A stretch of DNA of 64,000 nucleotides, from NCBI GenBank assembly GCA_013297655.1, contig JAAFHV010000005.1, positions 1 through 64,000 on the forward strand. Reading direction: 5' to 3'. Both the position numbers and the translations under genes were made by a program. Of this stretch, positions 27,769-37,203 are shown in pieces. Positions within the stretch are counted from its first letter, which is position 1. Each line of letters begins with the position of its first letter. This DNA comes from Myxococcales bacterium (GTDB taxonomy: Bacteria; Myxococcota_A; Polyangia; Polyangiales; Polyangiaceae). The notes beneath the pieces are model-generated. The model was not told where the DNA came from and ran no database searches. It worked only from the letters and a program-made list of their open reading frames with translations.

Positions 27769-29289
27769 TCACGAGAGATTGAAGAATGCCTTGACCCGCC
27801 CGAGGAGCGCGCTCGTTCGCTCCTCGAGCGCGCCGTCGGTGCTCCGTGAGGCGCGGGCGGCGAGGTGCGAATCGAGCTGATCTTGGCGCTCCGCGAGGAT
27901 ACGCGTCATTCGCGCCAAGAGCTCCGGCGCGGTGGTGATGATCGAGGAGAAATCGTCCTTCCCCACCACGACCACCTCCGTCTCGGTGAGGGCCTGCACC
28001 GAGGCTGCGCGCGGCTCTCCCGTCATGAGGGACATCTCGCCGAACAGGCTGCCCTTGCGGAGGCGCGCGACCTCCGCCGTGCTGTTGCCCTCGCGACCCA
28101 CGATGACGCTCACCTCGCCGCGAACGATGAGGTACATCGCGTCCCCGGCCGCTCCCTGGCGAATCACGGTTTCGCGCGGCGCGTAGACCTTCGTCGGTGA
28201 TCGTGCAGCCAGGTTCGCGAGCGCGTCGGCGGGGAGCACGGCCAAAAAGTCCACCTCACGGAGGCGCGACTCCACCTGCGCGCGCCGATGGGCGAGCGCA
28301 TTGCCCTCCTGCTCGTGCGAAACCTCGTAGAGATGCACGTCGCGGCGTGGGTACGGAATCGAGATGTCGGCGCGACGTAGGGCATACCAGATGCGCTCGC
28401 GAACGGCCGAGTCGGTGGCGTCGCGGAGCGCGAACGCGTCGGTGAAATAGCGTATCGAGTAGTCTACGCCGCTCGCCCCGAAGTGCTGCGTGAGCACGGC
28501 CGCGGCCGGCTCTGCGAGCACCCCGGGGATCTCGCTCAACGCGGATAGAATTGTCGCCCGCACCCGCTCCGGCGCTACTTCGTATCCGCATGAGACCTCG
28601 ACCGTGCGCCTCGAGACGGCGCTCGGTTTCGTGTAGTTTCGTATCGGCGCCTTCGCGAGCGAAGCGTTCGGCACGATGACTTCCATCTCGTCGTTCGTGA
28701 GCAACGTCGTGGCGCGCCAGTTGATCTCGATCACCCGCCCAATGAGGCGTGGATCGGGCTCGAACTGGATGTAGTCGCCCACCTCGAACGGCCGCTGCAT
28801 TTGGATCGAAATGCCGGCGAACAAGTTGCCGAGCGTGTCTTGGAGCGAGAGACCTATCACGGCTGTGAGGAGCGCGGACGTCGCGAGGATGCCGCCCGGT
28901 TCTACGCCGGCTACCCGCATCGCGAGGAGGGCTGCCGCGAGGTAAACGGCGGTCTGGAGGAGGTCGCGGAAGATACGGGGCATCGTGCGCTGCAGACGCG
29001 CCGCGAAGATGCCGTCCACCACGAGCACGAAGGCGCCGCGACCGAGTGCTAGAAGAAGCACGAAGACACCGAGCACCTCGGCCGGCTTCGTCACGACCGC
29101 GCCGGTCGGGAGCACCTGCGCGAGGAGCTCGAGCACCACGTGGATGGCTACGAGCGCTGCCGGCGCGACGATCTTTTTCCGCTCGCTCCGAGGCAGCACG
29201 ACGAGCATCGCGACGAGCAGGCCCACCGCCGCGACGATGCCGAGTCCGAAGAAGGAGTTGATGCCGAACCAGCGCTCGATGCCGCTCAC
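27769..29289 (-). CDS. MscS-family channel with C-terminal cyclic-nucleotide-binding domain
   Basis: A 506-residue membrane protein. Four hydrophobic segments lead to the pore helix region (GILATSALLTAVIGLSLQDTLGNLFAGISIQ in pieces), the glycine/alanine helix and QDTLGN motif of MscS channels; the beta domain follows (FEVGDYIQFEPDPRLIGRVIEINWRAT). After an alpha/beta vestibule and linker the last 150 residues form a cNMP-binding domain (FLAVLPADALANLA, RQGAAGDAMYLIVRGEVSV, GSLFGEMSLMTGEPRAASVQA). Such fusions (bCNG-type) open or close on cyclic nucleotide rather than tension. GTG at 29289 is preferred because the upstream frame overlaps the divergent gene and is not hydrophobic. Confidence 0.87.
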   Translation of the reverse strand: MSGIERWFGINSFFGLGIVAAVGLLVAMLVVLPRSERKKIVAPAALVAIHVVLELLAQVLPTGAVVTKPAEVLGVFVLLLALGRGAFVLVVDGIFAARLQRTMPRIFRDLLQTAVYLAAALLAMRVAGVEPGGILATSALLTAVIGLSLQDTLGNLFAGISIQMQRPFEVGDYIQFEPDPRLIGRVIEINWRATTLLTNDEMEVIVPNASLAKAPIRNYTKPSAVSRRTVEVSCGYEVAPERVRATILSALSEIPGVLAEPAAAVLTQHFGASGVDYSIRYFTDAFALRDATDSAVRERIWYALRRADISIPYPRRDVHLYEVSHEQEGNALAHRRAQVESRLREVDFLAVLPADALANLAARSPTKVYAPRETVIRQGAAGDAMYLIVRGEVSVIVGREGNSTAEVARLRKGSLFGEMSLMTGEPRAASVQALTETEVVVVGKDDFSSIITTAPELLARMTRILAERQDQLDSHLAARASRSTDGALEERTSALLGRVKAFFNLS

Positions 29290-29391
29290 GCTCGAGAAGT
29301 ACCAGAGCCGGGCGCTGCGCGACGCGGCAGTCGTGAGCCCTGGCGGGATAGGCCGTCTGCGGGGCGTGGGAACGGGTGTAGGGTGATCTGC

Positions 29392-30219
29392 GTGAAGGCG
29401 CACGATCCCACAAAAGCGTCCCCGCGCCCGCGCGCTCACCGCGACTCGTACCCCACCGATCCGTGCGTGGTCGTGCGCGGCAAGGGCCTTCGCGAACTGC
29501 TCCTCGAGTGCGAAGCGAAGCGCGCGCAAGTGGTGCTGATCGTCGACTCGGGCGACACGAGCGGGGAAATCGTTCTCGCCGACGGGGCGCCGTATCACGC
29601 AGCATACGCTGGAAAAATAGGGCTATCCGCGTTCGTGGCGCTCCTCGAAGTGGATGCCACACTCCTTCGCTTGGCGGTCCCGCGCACGCTCTCGCGATAC
29701 CCACGTTCGCTGTCGCTCTCGCTCGCCGACCTCGGCGTGTGCCGAACCGACGAGACGCGCCGCTTCGGCAGCGTGTTTCCGCCCGCCGAGATGCCTGCGG
29801 AGGAGAGCTCGTCTCTCAGCCTGGAGGGGATCGAGCCGCGCGACGGCGCCGTTCGCATCTCGAAGCGACTCATGGACGCGGCTTGGTCGGCGTGGACGCG
29901 CCTCGGCCCGCGCGCGTTTCGCGACGCGACGGTGCACTCGGCGTACGTTTTCGGCGCCCGCGACGAGACGCTCCATCTCGGCGGCGAGCGGCTCGGGCGC
30001 GCGCTCCTTCGTAAGGTCATCTCCGCGGCGTCGGAGGGTCGCCCCGGCGCTCTCGCGTGCGCCAGCGTCGACGGTATGGCCGCGGCTGGCGGGCTCTCGC
30101 AGAAGAACGAGTACGGCTGCGTCGTCGCCACTCGCGAGGCCGACGCGCACGTCGCGCGCGAGCTCGCAGGGGGGCTCATGAACGAGCTCCAGAGCTCCCT
30201 CGAATGCGGACACGATTGA
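29392..30219 (+). CDS. PATAN/DUF4388-domain protein
   Basis: A 275-residue soluble protein. Residues 20-95 match the DUF4388/PATAN domain (LRELLLECEAKRAQVVLIVD, SGEIVLADGAPYHAAYAGKIGLSAFVALL), a signalling domain common in myxobacterial and cyanobacterial regulators where a product is described as having a GxI(x)F.dG.xxhA motif. The C-terminal 150 residues are unassigned. The GTG at 29392 has GGTGA five bases upstream. It is transcribed divergently from the cyclic-nucleotide-gated channel across a 102-base gap, which suggests shared regulation but does not prove a functional link. Confidence 0.62.
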   Translation: MKAHDPTKASPRPRAHRDSYPTDPCVVVRGKGLRELLLECEAKRAQVVLIVDSGDTSGEIVLADGAPYHAAYAGKIGLSAFVALLEVDATLLRLAVPRTLSRYPRSLSLSLADLGVCRTDETRRFGSVFPPAEMPAEESSSLSLEGIEPRDGAVRISKRLMDAAWSAWTRLGPRAFRDATVHSAYVFGARDETLHLGGERLGRALLRKVISAASEGRPGALACASVDGMAAAGGLSQKNEYGCVVATREADAHVARELAGGLMNELQSSLECGHD

Positions 30220-30424: not shown

Positions 30425-32482
30425 ATGAGCGTATCCCGACATCGTTTCTTCGTAGGCGCGTGTGGTCTCTTCGTGCTCGCGGCCGCGGTGGGCTCCGCGC
30501 CGAGCTCGCATGCCCAATCGACACCTTCGTCGTCCCACGGTTCGGCCGGTCCCCGGGCGCGCGCGACGATGCGAATGCCTACCCGTGAGGAGTGGTACCG
30601 GCTCGTCGAGCACGAGCGAAAAGAGGCACTCCGCGAGCAGACGATCGCGCGCATCGTCGCTTCCCGCCCGCGGCTCCCGGAGGGCCCGAAGCCGCCCCCC
30701 GAGCGCGCCGGCCTCGACGTCGTTCACCGCACGATGGACATCGAAGTCGACCCTCGCAACGGCGCCGTCACGGCCACGCTCGATCTCCGCATCTCGAGCG
30801 TGGGGCGCGCGATCTCGAGCCTCGGGCTCTCGATGGGGAAGGGGCTCGTCGTCTCTTCGGTAGACGTGGCCGGCGCCCCCGCCACCGTGGCGCAGCGCAC
30901 CTCGGAGGGCTTCGTGTACTACGAAGCGATCTTCCCCGCGCCGGTCGTCGTGGGGCGCGAGTCCCTCGTCCGCGTGAAGGTCGCGGGGACGCTCGATTGC
31001 GCCGCCGCCGACGGTCCGTGTACTTTGCAACCCGACTTCGCGCGCTTCACGACCGGGTCCATCTTCCCGTACGTGTTCGACCTCGAGAACGCCGCGCGCG
31101 CGTTCGACGGCGCGACGACGGACCTCACGCTCCGTGTTCCAGAAGGGATGGACACCGTCGTCTCGGCGGAGGTGGCGGGGAAACGCACCGAGAACGGCAA
31201 ATCCGTCACCGAGTGGAAGGTGCCCAAAGACGTCAATCATTCGTATGGCTTTTATGCCTTCGTAGGGAACCTGAAGCGACAAGCGATCGATGGCCGCCCC
31301 GTGCCGACGGAGCTCGTCGCGCCGAAGGACGGCTCCACCGCGGACGCGAAGATCGCCGCGTGGTCGAAGGGGGCGCTCTCGTTCGTCGAGGGCATGATGG
31401 GCACCAATCTTCCGTTCGCGAACCAAGCCCTCGTGCGATTGCCCATCTCGATGGACGACGTGGGTACGGTGAGCTACGGCATGACGCTCTTGAACGAGAC
31501 CTACGCGCGCGCGGGGGAGGACGTTTATCACGAGACTTGGGTCCACGAGAACGCGCACCTCGCGTGGGCGATCGTGGTGCCGGAGCCAGAGGGGTACCGC
31601 ACCCGTATGCTCACCGAGGGTCTCGCCACTCTCACCGAGGTCGACTTCACGAAGAGCCTCTTCCCGGAGGAGGAGCTCGATAAATACCTGGCCCGTCGAT
31701 ACCAATCGATCCGTCTCGACTGGCTCGGCAAGGGCGGGCTCGAGAAGCTCCCCCCCGTCGTCGCGACGGAGAGCGTGGCGCAGAAGCTCACCTCGAGCGG
31801 AACAGCGGGTTATGCCGGCTGGGCCTACGAAAAATCGGCTGCCACCCTCGACCACCTCCGCGCCACGATAGGCGACGAGGCCTTCGCGTCCGCGATGAAG
31901 GAATACGTACGCCTCTATGCGTGGAAGGGCGCCTCGGTGGACGAGTTCCGCGCCGTCATGGAGAAGGCGAGTGGCATCGACCTGAAGCCGGTGTTCGATC
32001 GTTGGTTCACGAAGACGAGCCGGCCCACCCTCACGGTCGGATACCGCAAGACGGCGGCCGGCGGCTACGAAGCGACCATCGACAAGGACGACGAGGACGA
32101 CCTCCCGCTCGCCTTCACCGTGGTCGACATGAACGGCGAAAGGAAGCCGCTCAAGGCGGTCGCGAAGGGCACGAGCACCGCGATCCCCCTCGAGACGACG
32201 GTCGGCATCTATGCGGTCGTGCCCAATCCGCGACTCGGCATTTTGGCCAAGCTCGCGTCGCCAGTGGCGGGCGACGTCGACTTCGACGGCGAGGCGGACG
32301 GCAAAGACCTTTTGGCGTGCGCGCGCGCCGTCGGGACGAAATTCACCACCACCGCGGCGGCGAACCCGGGGCTCTGGAACATCGAGTCTCGTTTCGCGGT
32401 CGAGTGCGACGTCGACGAGGACGGTGACGTGGACGAAAGTGACTGGACGGCGATCACGACCGCCTTCGGAGGTAAGCCATGA
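30425..32482 (+). CDS. Secreted M1-like zinc metallopeptidase with C-terminal dockerin-type repeats
   Basis: A 685-residue exported protein with an N-terminal signal (FFVGACGLFVLAAAVGSAPSSHAQ). The N-terminal half is a beta-rich domain like those of M1 aminopeptidases; the gluzincin active site is HENAH (His374, Glu375, His378) with the third ligand Glu398 in EGLATL. No GAMEN motif is present, but the equivalent MDDVGTVSYGM lies ahead. The last 70 residues have two 12-residue calcium loops, DVDFDGEADGKD (617-628) and DVDEDGDVDESD (662-673), with Asp at positions 1, 3, 5, 9 and 12, the arrangement of dockerin repeats. The stop overlaps the start of a lipoprotein gene. Confidence 0.82.
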   Translation: MSVSRHRFFVGACGLFVLAAAVGSAPSSHAQSTPSSSHGSAGPRARATMRMPTREEWYRLVEHERKEALREQTIARIVASRPRLPEGPKPPPERAGLDVVHRTMDIEVDPRNGAVTATLDLRISSVGRAISSLGLSMGKGLVVSSVDVAGAPATVAQRTSEGFVYYEAIFPAPVVVGRESLVRVKVAGTLDCAAADGPCTLQPDFARFTTGSIFPYVFDLENAARAFDGATTDLTLRVPEGMDTVVSAEVAGKRTENGKSVTEWKVPKDVNHSYGFYAFVGNLKRQAIDGRPVPTELVAPKDGSTADAKIAAWSKGALSFVEGMMGTNLPFANQALVRLPISMDDVGTVSYGMTLLNETYARAGEDVYHETWVHENAHLAWAIVVPEPEGYRTRMLTEGLATLTEVDFTKSLFPEEELDKYLARRYQSIRLDWLGKGGLEKLPPVVATESVAQKLTSSGTAGYAGWAYEKSAATLDHLRATIGDEAFASAMKEYVRLYAWKGASVDEFRAVMEKASGIDLKPVFDRWFTKTSRPTLTVGYRKTAAGGYEATIDKDDEDDLPLAFTVVDMNGERKPLKAVAKGTSTAIPLETTVGIYAVVPNPRLGILAKLASPVAGDVDFDGEADGKDLLACARAVGTKFTTTAAANPGLWNIESRFAVECDVDEDGDVDESDWTAITTAFGGKP

Positions 32483-33012
32483 GCGCTCGAATCATCGCGA
32501 CGTCGACCCTCGCGCTATCTCTGTTGCTCGCCGTAGCGGGTTGCAGCACGGACGAGCCAACGGGCCCCGGGCCCCTCAAGGCGACCGCGGACGGTCCGAA
32601 GACGGGCGCCTGGGTCGGGCTCGAGCCTCGCATCGAGAACGACAAGCTCGTGGTCGACGTGGTCGCGCACGACGTACCCGAGTTGTCCGGTGTCGCGGTG
32701 CGCCTCGAGCACCCGGAGTGGGCCAAATTCGAGGCACGAGACGTTGGTGCAGGCTGGGACGGCGAGGCGCTCCACCTCGTGAAGGTCGTCGGCACGCGGG
32801 AGGTCTCCGTCGTCGACACGGCGAAGGGCGACAAGGCGGGTCGACCGGGCGGCGCGAAGGTGCTCGTGTCGACGTTGCGGTTCAAGATCGAAGGCGCGCC
32901 GACCACGGGCGACCTCGGTGCGCTCCGGATCGTGCCGATACGCTCCGAGCTCCGCGACGGAACCGGCAAGGTGATCGCCGCCTCGTTCGCGGGCGCCCGG
33001 TTCAGCCGCTGA
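32479..33012 (+). CDS. Lipoprotein, candidate cohesin-like partner of the dockerin-bearing peptidase
   Basis: A 177-residue lipoprotein (lipobox VAGC, Cys near 22). The mature part is beta-rich and resembles the cohesin pattern: an early strand with paired acidic/valine residues (LVVDVVAHDVPELSGVAVRLEH), a strand after an Asp-Val-Gly, and a closing VLVSTLRFKIEG reminiscent of the final strand of type-I cohesins. The similarity is structural impression only. Its ATG overlaps the peptidase stop (ATGA) with GGAGG six bases upstream, so both are made together. If correct, it anchors the peptidase to the outer membrane. Confidence 0.5.
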   Translation: MSARIIATSTLALSLLLAVAGCSTDEPTGPGPLKATADGPKTGAWVGLEPRIENDKLVVDVVAHDVPELSGVAVRLEHPEWAKFEARDVGAGWDGEALHLVKVVGTREVSVVDTAKGDKAGRPGGAKVLVSTLRFKIEGAPTTGDLGALRIVPIRSELRDGTGKVIAASFAGARFSR

Positions 33013-36171: not shown

Positions 36172-37203
36172 CTAAGAAGTGGCCTTCGCGAGCCCGGCGC
36201 GGGCGATCAGGGCGTCGGCCTCGGCAGGGTGCTTTTTTGCCTCGAGGAGCGACTGGAGCACGAGCGGAGCGACGATGGTCGCGTCGGACTCGATGACGAA
36301 CATCGGGGTGTCCTCGGTGAGCTTGTCCCAGGTGATCTTCTCGTTCGGGGTCGCGCCGGAGTACGAGCCGTACGAGGTGGTCGAGTCCGAGATTTGGCAG
36401 AAGTAGGCCCAGGGCTTCGCCTCTTCTTGCATGTCGTACTTGAGCGACGGGACGACGCAGATGGGGAAGTCGCCCGCGATGCCGCCGCCGATCTGGAAGA
36501 AGCCGACCCCTCTTCCGGAGGAGAGCTCTTTGTATTGGTCGTAAAGGGCGCCCATGTACTCGATACCGGACTTCGCGATCGAGGCCGAGACCTCGCCCGT
36601 CTTCGCGTACGAAGCGAAGATGTTTCCGAAGGTGGAGTCTTCGTAGCCGGGCACGACGATCGGCAGGTTCTTCTGCGCCGCGGCGAGGAGCCAGCAGTCG
36701 TCGGCGTTGCCCTTGTGGAGCTCCGTCCCGATCGTGGTGACGAGCTCGTAGAAGTACTCGTGCCAATACCGACGGGTGTTGGTCTCCGACGCGCGCTTCC
36801 ACATGGGGACGACTACCTGCTCTACCGCGCGGAAGGCCTCGTCTTCCGGGATGCTCGTGTCGGTCACGCGCCGCATCCGATCTTCGAGGATCTTCGTGTC
36901 GTCCGCTTTGGTGAAGTAGCGGTAGTCGGGGAAGTCTTTGTAGTGGTCGTGAGCGACGAGGCGAAAGAGAGACTCCTCGAGGTTCGCGCCGGTGACCGAG
37001 AGGCCGTGGATGAGGCCCTCGCGAATCGCGGGCGCGAGCGAGATGCCGAGCTGCGCGGACGACATGGCCCCCGCCACCGCCCAGAACATCTTCCCGCCCG
37101 CTTGGATGTGCCGGTGGTACGCGACGATGGCGTCACGCGTGGCCCTTGCGTTGAAGTTCTTGAAGTTCGTCAGCACGAATTCGAGGGTGGGGAGGCTGGC
37201 CAT
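36172..37203 (-). CDS. Deoxyhypusine synthase-family protein (probably a polyamine enzyme)
   Basis: A 343-residue NAD-dependent enzyme of the deoxyhypusine synthase fold. It has FWAVAGAMSSAQLGISLAPAIREGLIHGLSVTGANL (pieces), the GxxSSAxxG and TGANxxHD-type NAD/spermidine site, and ends with the catalytic lysine in ITWDKL (Lys294), matching the SWGK block of eukaryotic enzymes. Bacteria lack eIF5A, so relatives usually make homospermidine or a related polyamine from spermidine or putrescine. GAGGGGCGACC precedes the ATG at 37203. It starts 31 bases before the DprE1-like gene's start on the same strand but is transcribed away from it on its upstream side; the next gene upstream is divergent. 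Confidence 0.78.
   Translation of the reverse strand: MASLPTLEFVLTNFKNFNARATRDAIVAYHRHIQAGGKMFWAVAGAMSSAQLGISLAPAIREGLIHGLSVTGANLEESLFRLVAHDHYKDFPDYRYFTKADDTKILEDRMRRVTDTSIPEDEAFRAVEQVVVPMWKRASETNTRRYWHEYFYELVTTIGTELHKGNADDCWLLAAAQKNLPIVVPGYEDSTFGNIFASYAKTGEVSASIAKSGIEYMGALYDQYKELSSGRGVGFFQIGGGIAGDFPICVVPSLKYDMQEEAKPWAYFCQISDSTTSYGSYSGATPNEKITWDKLTEDTPMFVIESDATIVAPLVLQSLLEAKKHPAEADALIARAGLAKATS

Follow-up and report, generated by a model that had tools for sequence, protein, structure and literature searches.

A putative two-gene cohesin-dockerin tether for a secreted M1-family peptidase in Myxococcota

Cohesin and dockerin modules form one of the strongest protein clips known, and have been studied almost only in the cellulosomes of Firmicutes. 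The reason for the scattered occurrence of both modules beyond cellulosomes is a matter of discussion (PMC9012536; PMC12997984), and a search of the open-licence literature found no description of cohesins or dockerins with myxobacteria or Myxococcota. At one locus of the 64,000-nucleotide stretch of Myxococcales DNA analyzed here (the window), the gene of a secreted metallopeptidase with a dockerin tail overlaps that of a lipoprotein. A preliminary description had proposed a two-gene device which fixes the peptidase to the outer surface of the cell. The features of the locus are given in Table 1.

Table 1. Coordinates of the peptidase-lipoprotein locus in the window and the evidence for each feature
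Feature	Position	Strand	Evidence
Secreted M1-family zinc peptidase with C-terminal dockerin, 685 aa	30425-32482	+	translation; Pfam Peptidase_M1
Sec-type signal peptide without lipobox, ~residues 1-31	30425-30517	+	sequence, by eye
Peptidase_M1 catalytic domain, residues 342-527	31448-32005	+	Pfam
Position of GXMEN exopeptidase motif, VGTVS here (motif lost)	31460-31474	+	family comparison
HEXXH zinc site HENAH, residues 374-378	31544-31558	+	sequence, conservation
Third zinc ligand E398	31616-31618	+	sequence, conservation
Candidate catalytic Y468	31826-31828	+	invariant in 14 close relatives
Dockerin module, residues 615-682	32267-32470	+	Pfam; PDB profile search; AF2 model
Calcium loop 1, residues 617-628, D617-VDFDGEADGK-D628	32273-32308	+	sequence
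Cys632, probable disulfide partner of Cys661	32318-32320	+	invariant in 14 close relatives
Cys661, directly before loop 2	32405-32407	+	invariant in 14 close relatives
Calcium loop 2, residues 662-673, D662-VDEDGDVDES-D673	32408-32443	+	sequence
ATGA stop/start overlap, putative translational coupling	32479-32482	+	peptidase TGA 32480-32482, lipoprotein ATG 32479-32481
Cohesin lipoprotein, 177 aa	32479-33012	+	translation
Lipoprotein signal with lipobox VAGC22 (LAVAGC22)	32479-32544	+	sequence
Cohesin domain, residues 41-177	32599-33009	+	AF2; Foldseek, VIA-align; family profile vs PDB

The dockerin tail was found to contain two loops with Asp at positions 1, 3, 5, 9, and 12 whose starts lie 45 residues apart, exactly as the preliminary description had claimed. 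Its reading of the tail as a dockerin was borne out by the HMM search, in which residues 615-677 matched Pfam Dockerin_1 (dockerin type I, PF00404) at 24.5 bits when the tail was searched alone (cut-off 22.9; 18.1 bits, below the cut-off, within the whole peptidase). Dockerin_1 was also matched by 14/14 members of the close peptidase family. A profile search of the PDB also yields dockerins. The AF2 model of the module is of fair quality (pLDDT 73.9, pTM 0.61) and places a helix after each loop (model residues 29-36 and 74-83). Its 14 best Foldseek matches and all VIA matches listed are dockerin-bearing chains, with 2ozn_B being the best VIA match (Z 6.7, 2.0 A over 55 aa).

The starts of dockerin loops are usually some 30-35 residues apart, a spacing that is typical rather than strictly defining. 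The 45 residues found here fall outside this range, and relatives beyond the clade of the window mostly have shorter modules; the module is thus an atypical dockerin, for which the fold and profile matches nonetheless hold. In the 14 close relatives D617, F620, D621, D625, G626, and D628 of loop 1 are invariant, as are D662 and D673 of loop 2. Some relatives (G021, G104, and several of family f37) have a degenerate loop 2, and two bound calcium ions are therefore not universal. The long inter-loop segment holds Cys632 and Cys661 in the clade of the window only, dockerins outside it being without the pair, and a distant copy (G211) lacks both Cys together. Judged from this pattern, the segment is probably stapled by a C632-C661 disulfide in this clade. 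Both the wide spacing and the invariant Cys pair are derived in this clade.

The catalytic part of the enzyme had been described as M1-like, which was confirmed by a Peptidase_M1 (PF01433) match of 40.1 bits (Pfam cut-off 27.7). N-termini comparable to its signal peptide can be picked in nearly all complete relatives. Within the peptidase family HEXXH is present in 43/43 members and the third zinc Glu in 42/43, while the Glu of GXMEN is found in 0/43, compared with 15/15 canonical M1 enzymes from the same phylum. It has been suggested that the Glu and Asn of GXMEN may contact the N-terminus of the substrate (PMC2241622). As GXMEN is lost and the HEXXH motif and zinc Glu are kept, the protein, which belongs to family M1 by its domain and zinc site, is probably no ordinary M1 aminopeptidase. 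The loss suggests that it does not clip single N-terminal residues as classical M1 enzymes do, and endopeptidase activity would be a guess. The alignment also showed that a Cys pair of nearly all relatives is missing, both Cys together, from residues 498-503 of the window peptidase.

The lipoprotein as a single query gave nothing in Pfam, NCBIfam, or PDB except a weak lipobox match. Its body is beta-rich and was modeled by AF2 with a pLDDT of 86.5 (pTM 0.78). In VIA-align, 49 of the 50 matches listed for the lipoprotein model were cohesins (ranks 1-49), the best being 6kgc_A (Z 15.5, 2.3 A over 133 aa) and the first other match having a Z of 9.4; Foldseek gave the cohesin 6kge (E 1.7e-6). The profile of the 14-member lipoprotein family also finds solved cohesins in the PDB, with 5g5d (E 4.1e-5) as the best match and cellulosomal cohesin entries making up 15/16 of the sequences among the matches listed. 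A different fold had been sought as a refutation of the cohesin-like reading, and the matches were cohesins with high confidence. In the HMM search against Pfam Cohesin (PF00963), 9/14 close family members matched at E<=1, with G013 above the cut-off of 24.1 at 25.5 bits and G008 below it at 23.1 bits, and the window protein alone did not match. On the strength of its model, the lipoprotein is a cohesin by fold. A lipobox-like motif was found by pattern search in most of its homologues. In two cohesin lipoproteins elsewhere (L206 in G419 and L209 in G453) the cohesin is separated from the anchor by an IPT/TIG-like domain.

Of 184 genomes from the order, the same 14 gave strong matches to the lipoprotein profile and to that of the peptidase, the named ones being Labilithrix and other Polyangiales/Myxococcales MAGs. 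The overlap of the peptidase stop with the lipoprotein start, which the preliminary description had seen in the window, recurs in all of them, the two genes being neighbors that share 4 nt in 14/14. Every one of these genomes retains the loops, the overlap, and the two genes, which puts the arrangement well beyond chance. The -4 overlap puts the close-clade pairs out of frame, and there is therefore no natural read-through fusion in this clade. A third conserved gene was looked for around the window copy and none was found, and a scan for promoters and terminators gave nothing above chance. By eye, the surroundings include a deoxyhypusine-synthase-like protein, unusual in bacteria (window 36172-37203, minus strand), and an MscS-type channel with a C-terminal cyclic-nucleotide-binding domain (window 27769-29598, minus strand).

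The pairing was followed further with the cohesin profile over class and phylum combined with local profile scans, which gave 47 cohesin loci. An M1 peptidase adjoins 45 of these, with a dockerin in 43 and a contig end truncating the other two; the remaining loci (G502 and G540), which have no peptidase, both lie near contig ends and for that reason were not counted against the pairing. As these loci had been found through the cohesin, a dockerin profile was also run over 379 phylum genomes, giving 35 further loci, namely 25 M1-dockerins (four cut by contig ends) and 10 non-M1 dockerin loci. A cohesin lipoprotein adjoins 18/21 of the M1-dockerin genes with enough flank, compared with a cohesin-like neighbor at 2/10 of the non-M1 loci (Fisher p 7e-4). 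The three M1-dockerins without a neighboring cohesin are second copies (L192 in G486, L199 in G474, and L205 in G209) in genomes which carry a full pair elsewhere; these solitary copies might share the cohesin of that pair.

In total, 63 adjacent pairs were identified in 61 genomes across Myxococcota, all with both genes on the same strand. The pair is a conserved co-translated module, which a dedicated device would need to be. The peptidase comes first in 30 pairs and the cohesin in 33, and a start is available at a 4-nt overlap in 56/63. Shared descent accounts for part of the pairing, but not for its retention through inverted gene order. Co-evolution by partial Mantel was positive without singling out the dockerin (dockerin-cohesin 0.35 vs. 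M1-cohesin 0.45). Two complete pairs were found in each of G209 (L126 and L131) and G527 (L144 and L145), which makes these genomes useful for testing specificity.

The dockerin of this peptidase is the only Pfam dockerin in the window genome, which has no Pfam cohesin, and the Pfam-cohesin matches in the 14 close genomes fall only at this locus. For these reasons the locus is a private pair and not a cellulosome. No multi-cohesin scaffoldin was seen in the 14 genomes, each lipoprotein examined having one cohesin. Another secreted family, found at L010 (G008:C263) and L078 (G129:C1), combines calcium-loop repeats with a dockerin-like module at its C-terminus; no cohesin was seen nearby. A second type of pair was observed in family f38 (L214:1840-4241 in G323 and L211:672-3055 in G542), in which a cohesin-like lipoprotein gene overlaps the gene of an unrelated peptidase-like protein that is secreted, bears its dockerin at the N-terminus, and has the motif HETGHLLGLTAH. 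Both non-M1 dockerin proteins with a cohesin-like neighbor carry this unrelated HExxH peptidase-like motif; Pfam matches the cohesin of f38 weakly (16.4 bits), and the second f38 cohesin-like lipoprotein was found by eye.

We consider it likely that the two genes form a private cohesin-dockerin tether of one peptidase and one cohesin on a membrane lipoprotein, although binding itself is inferred. The Sec signal peptide would export the M1-type zinc peptidase, which has no membrane anchor of its own, and the co-translated lipoprotein would be lipid-anchored and present its single cohesin. The dockerin, folded around its two calcium loops, would then bind the neighboring cohesin, presumably in a calcium-dependent manner, and the enzyme would be held at the envelope on whichever membrane and face the lipoprotein may occupy. 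Translational coupling may set a stoichiometry of ~1:1. A tether is the simplest mechanism for an unanchored enzyme with a plain signal peptide beside a cohesin that carries a lipobox. Read from its sequence, the lipobox is a lipoprotein-type signal and does not fix which membrane or face is used; the outer surface named in the preliminary description is possible.

Tight co-translation in either order would fit an enzyme-inhibitor or enzyme-chaperone pair equally well, and a fold match alone shows no function. The lipoprotein might then bind the peptidase, perhaps through the dockerin, and serve its silencing or maturation instead of its anchoring. However, the cohesin fold is best known for binding dockerins, the partner bears a dockerin in every pair with the peptidase end present, and for a protein with a lipobox anchoring is the simplest role; we consider an inhibitor or folding partner unlikely. 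It is also conceivable that dockerin and lipoprotein bind other ligands and are co-inherited without ever meeting, given that dockerin-like calcium modules are found alone in unrelated proteins. This we regard as very improbable, the pairing having survived inverted gene order and deep divergence and f38, despite its unrelated peptidase-like protein, also having its dockerin beside a cohesin-like lipoprotein.

A miniature cellulosome, in which the cohesin lipoprotein also takes the dockerins of other proteins, would find clients in the second M1-dockerins without a cohesin of their own (G486, G474, and G209) and in the few other dockerin proteins of G008, G129, G174, and G021. Against such a many-client system, for which the chances appear slim, stand the single dockerin of the window genome and the absence of multi-cohesin scaffoldins among the lipoproteins examined. 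More tentatively, and with somewhat less than even confidence, cohesin-dockerin may in Myxococcota be a general plug-and-socket which mounts peptidases on membrane lipoproteins and has been adopted on at least two occasions (by the GXMEN-less M1 enzymes and the f38 HExxH proteins). If so, calcium-dependent docking would let the enzyme be both mounted and released, for instance in predation.

The locus provides a minimal, genetically linked, and phylum-wide example, with a single enzyme and a single socket, from a Gram-negative phylum with many predators, and offers a directly testable function for non-cellulosomal cohesins. It also supplies ~60 natural pairs for specificity studies, a dockerin variant with cysteines, and a subgroup of M1 enzymes that lacks the exopeptidase motif.

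The pair shares its cohesin fold (Z 15.5 to 6kgc) with cellulosomal type I/II pairs such as those of Clostridium thermocellum and C. acetobutylicum (CaCohA2-CaDoc0917). It likewise has a duplicated calcium-loop dockerin on a secreted enzyme and a non-catalytic cohesin protein which would hold that enzyme. Unlike in those systems, one cohesin and one enzyme are encoded together, with a lipid anchor, in a Gram-negative phylum; the enzyme is a peptidase and not a glycoside hydrolase, and no scaffoldin was found. According to a 2026 paper, no cellulosome has been described outside Firmicutes (PMC12997984). The NagJ cohesin and NagH dockerin of Clostridium perfringens (2ozn), the source of the best VIA match to the dockerin, are likewise non-cellulosomal, with both modules on enzymes of a multi-enzyme complex (PMC12997984). 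The cohesin here is instead a separate lipoprotein without an enzyme domain. Among archaeal non-cellulosomal cohesins (Archaeoglobus fulgidus 2xdh; ANME), of which 2xdh is one of the top structural matches of the lipoprotein, no dedicated operon with a peptidase has been described to our knowledge. Those of ANME archaea occur outside cellulosomes and include multi-cohesin proteins (PMC9012536). Dockerin-bearing peptidases, as here, have been reported in Ruminococcus flavefaciens (PMC2930009) and in the Limousia mucinolysome (PMC12997984), but these join large scaffoldins common to many enzymes. The Peptidase_M1 domain, HEXXH, and third zinc Glu are shared with M1 aminopeptidases (PepN/APN), from which the family differs in having lost GXMEN, including its Glu, in 43/43 members. 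This differs from the partial losses known in Actinobacteria, which retain the Glu, and in Ap-O, which retains the Met only (PMC2241622). Non-cellulosomal cohesin-dockerin pairs and dockerin peptidases were already known, and what is described here is a probable dedicated pair of dockerin peptidase and cohesin lipoprotein in Myxococcota.
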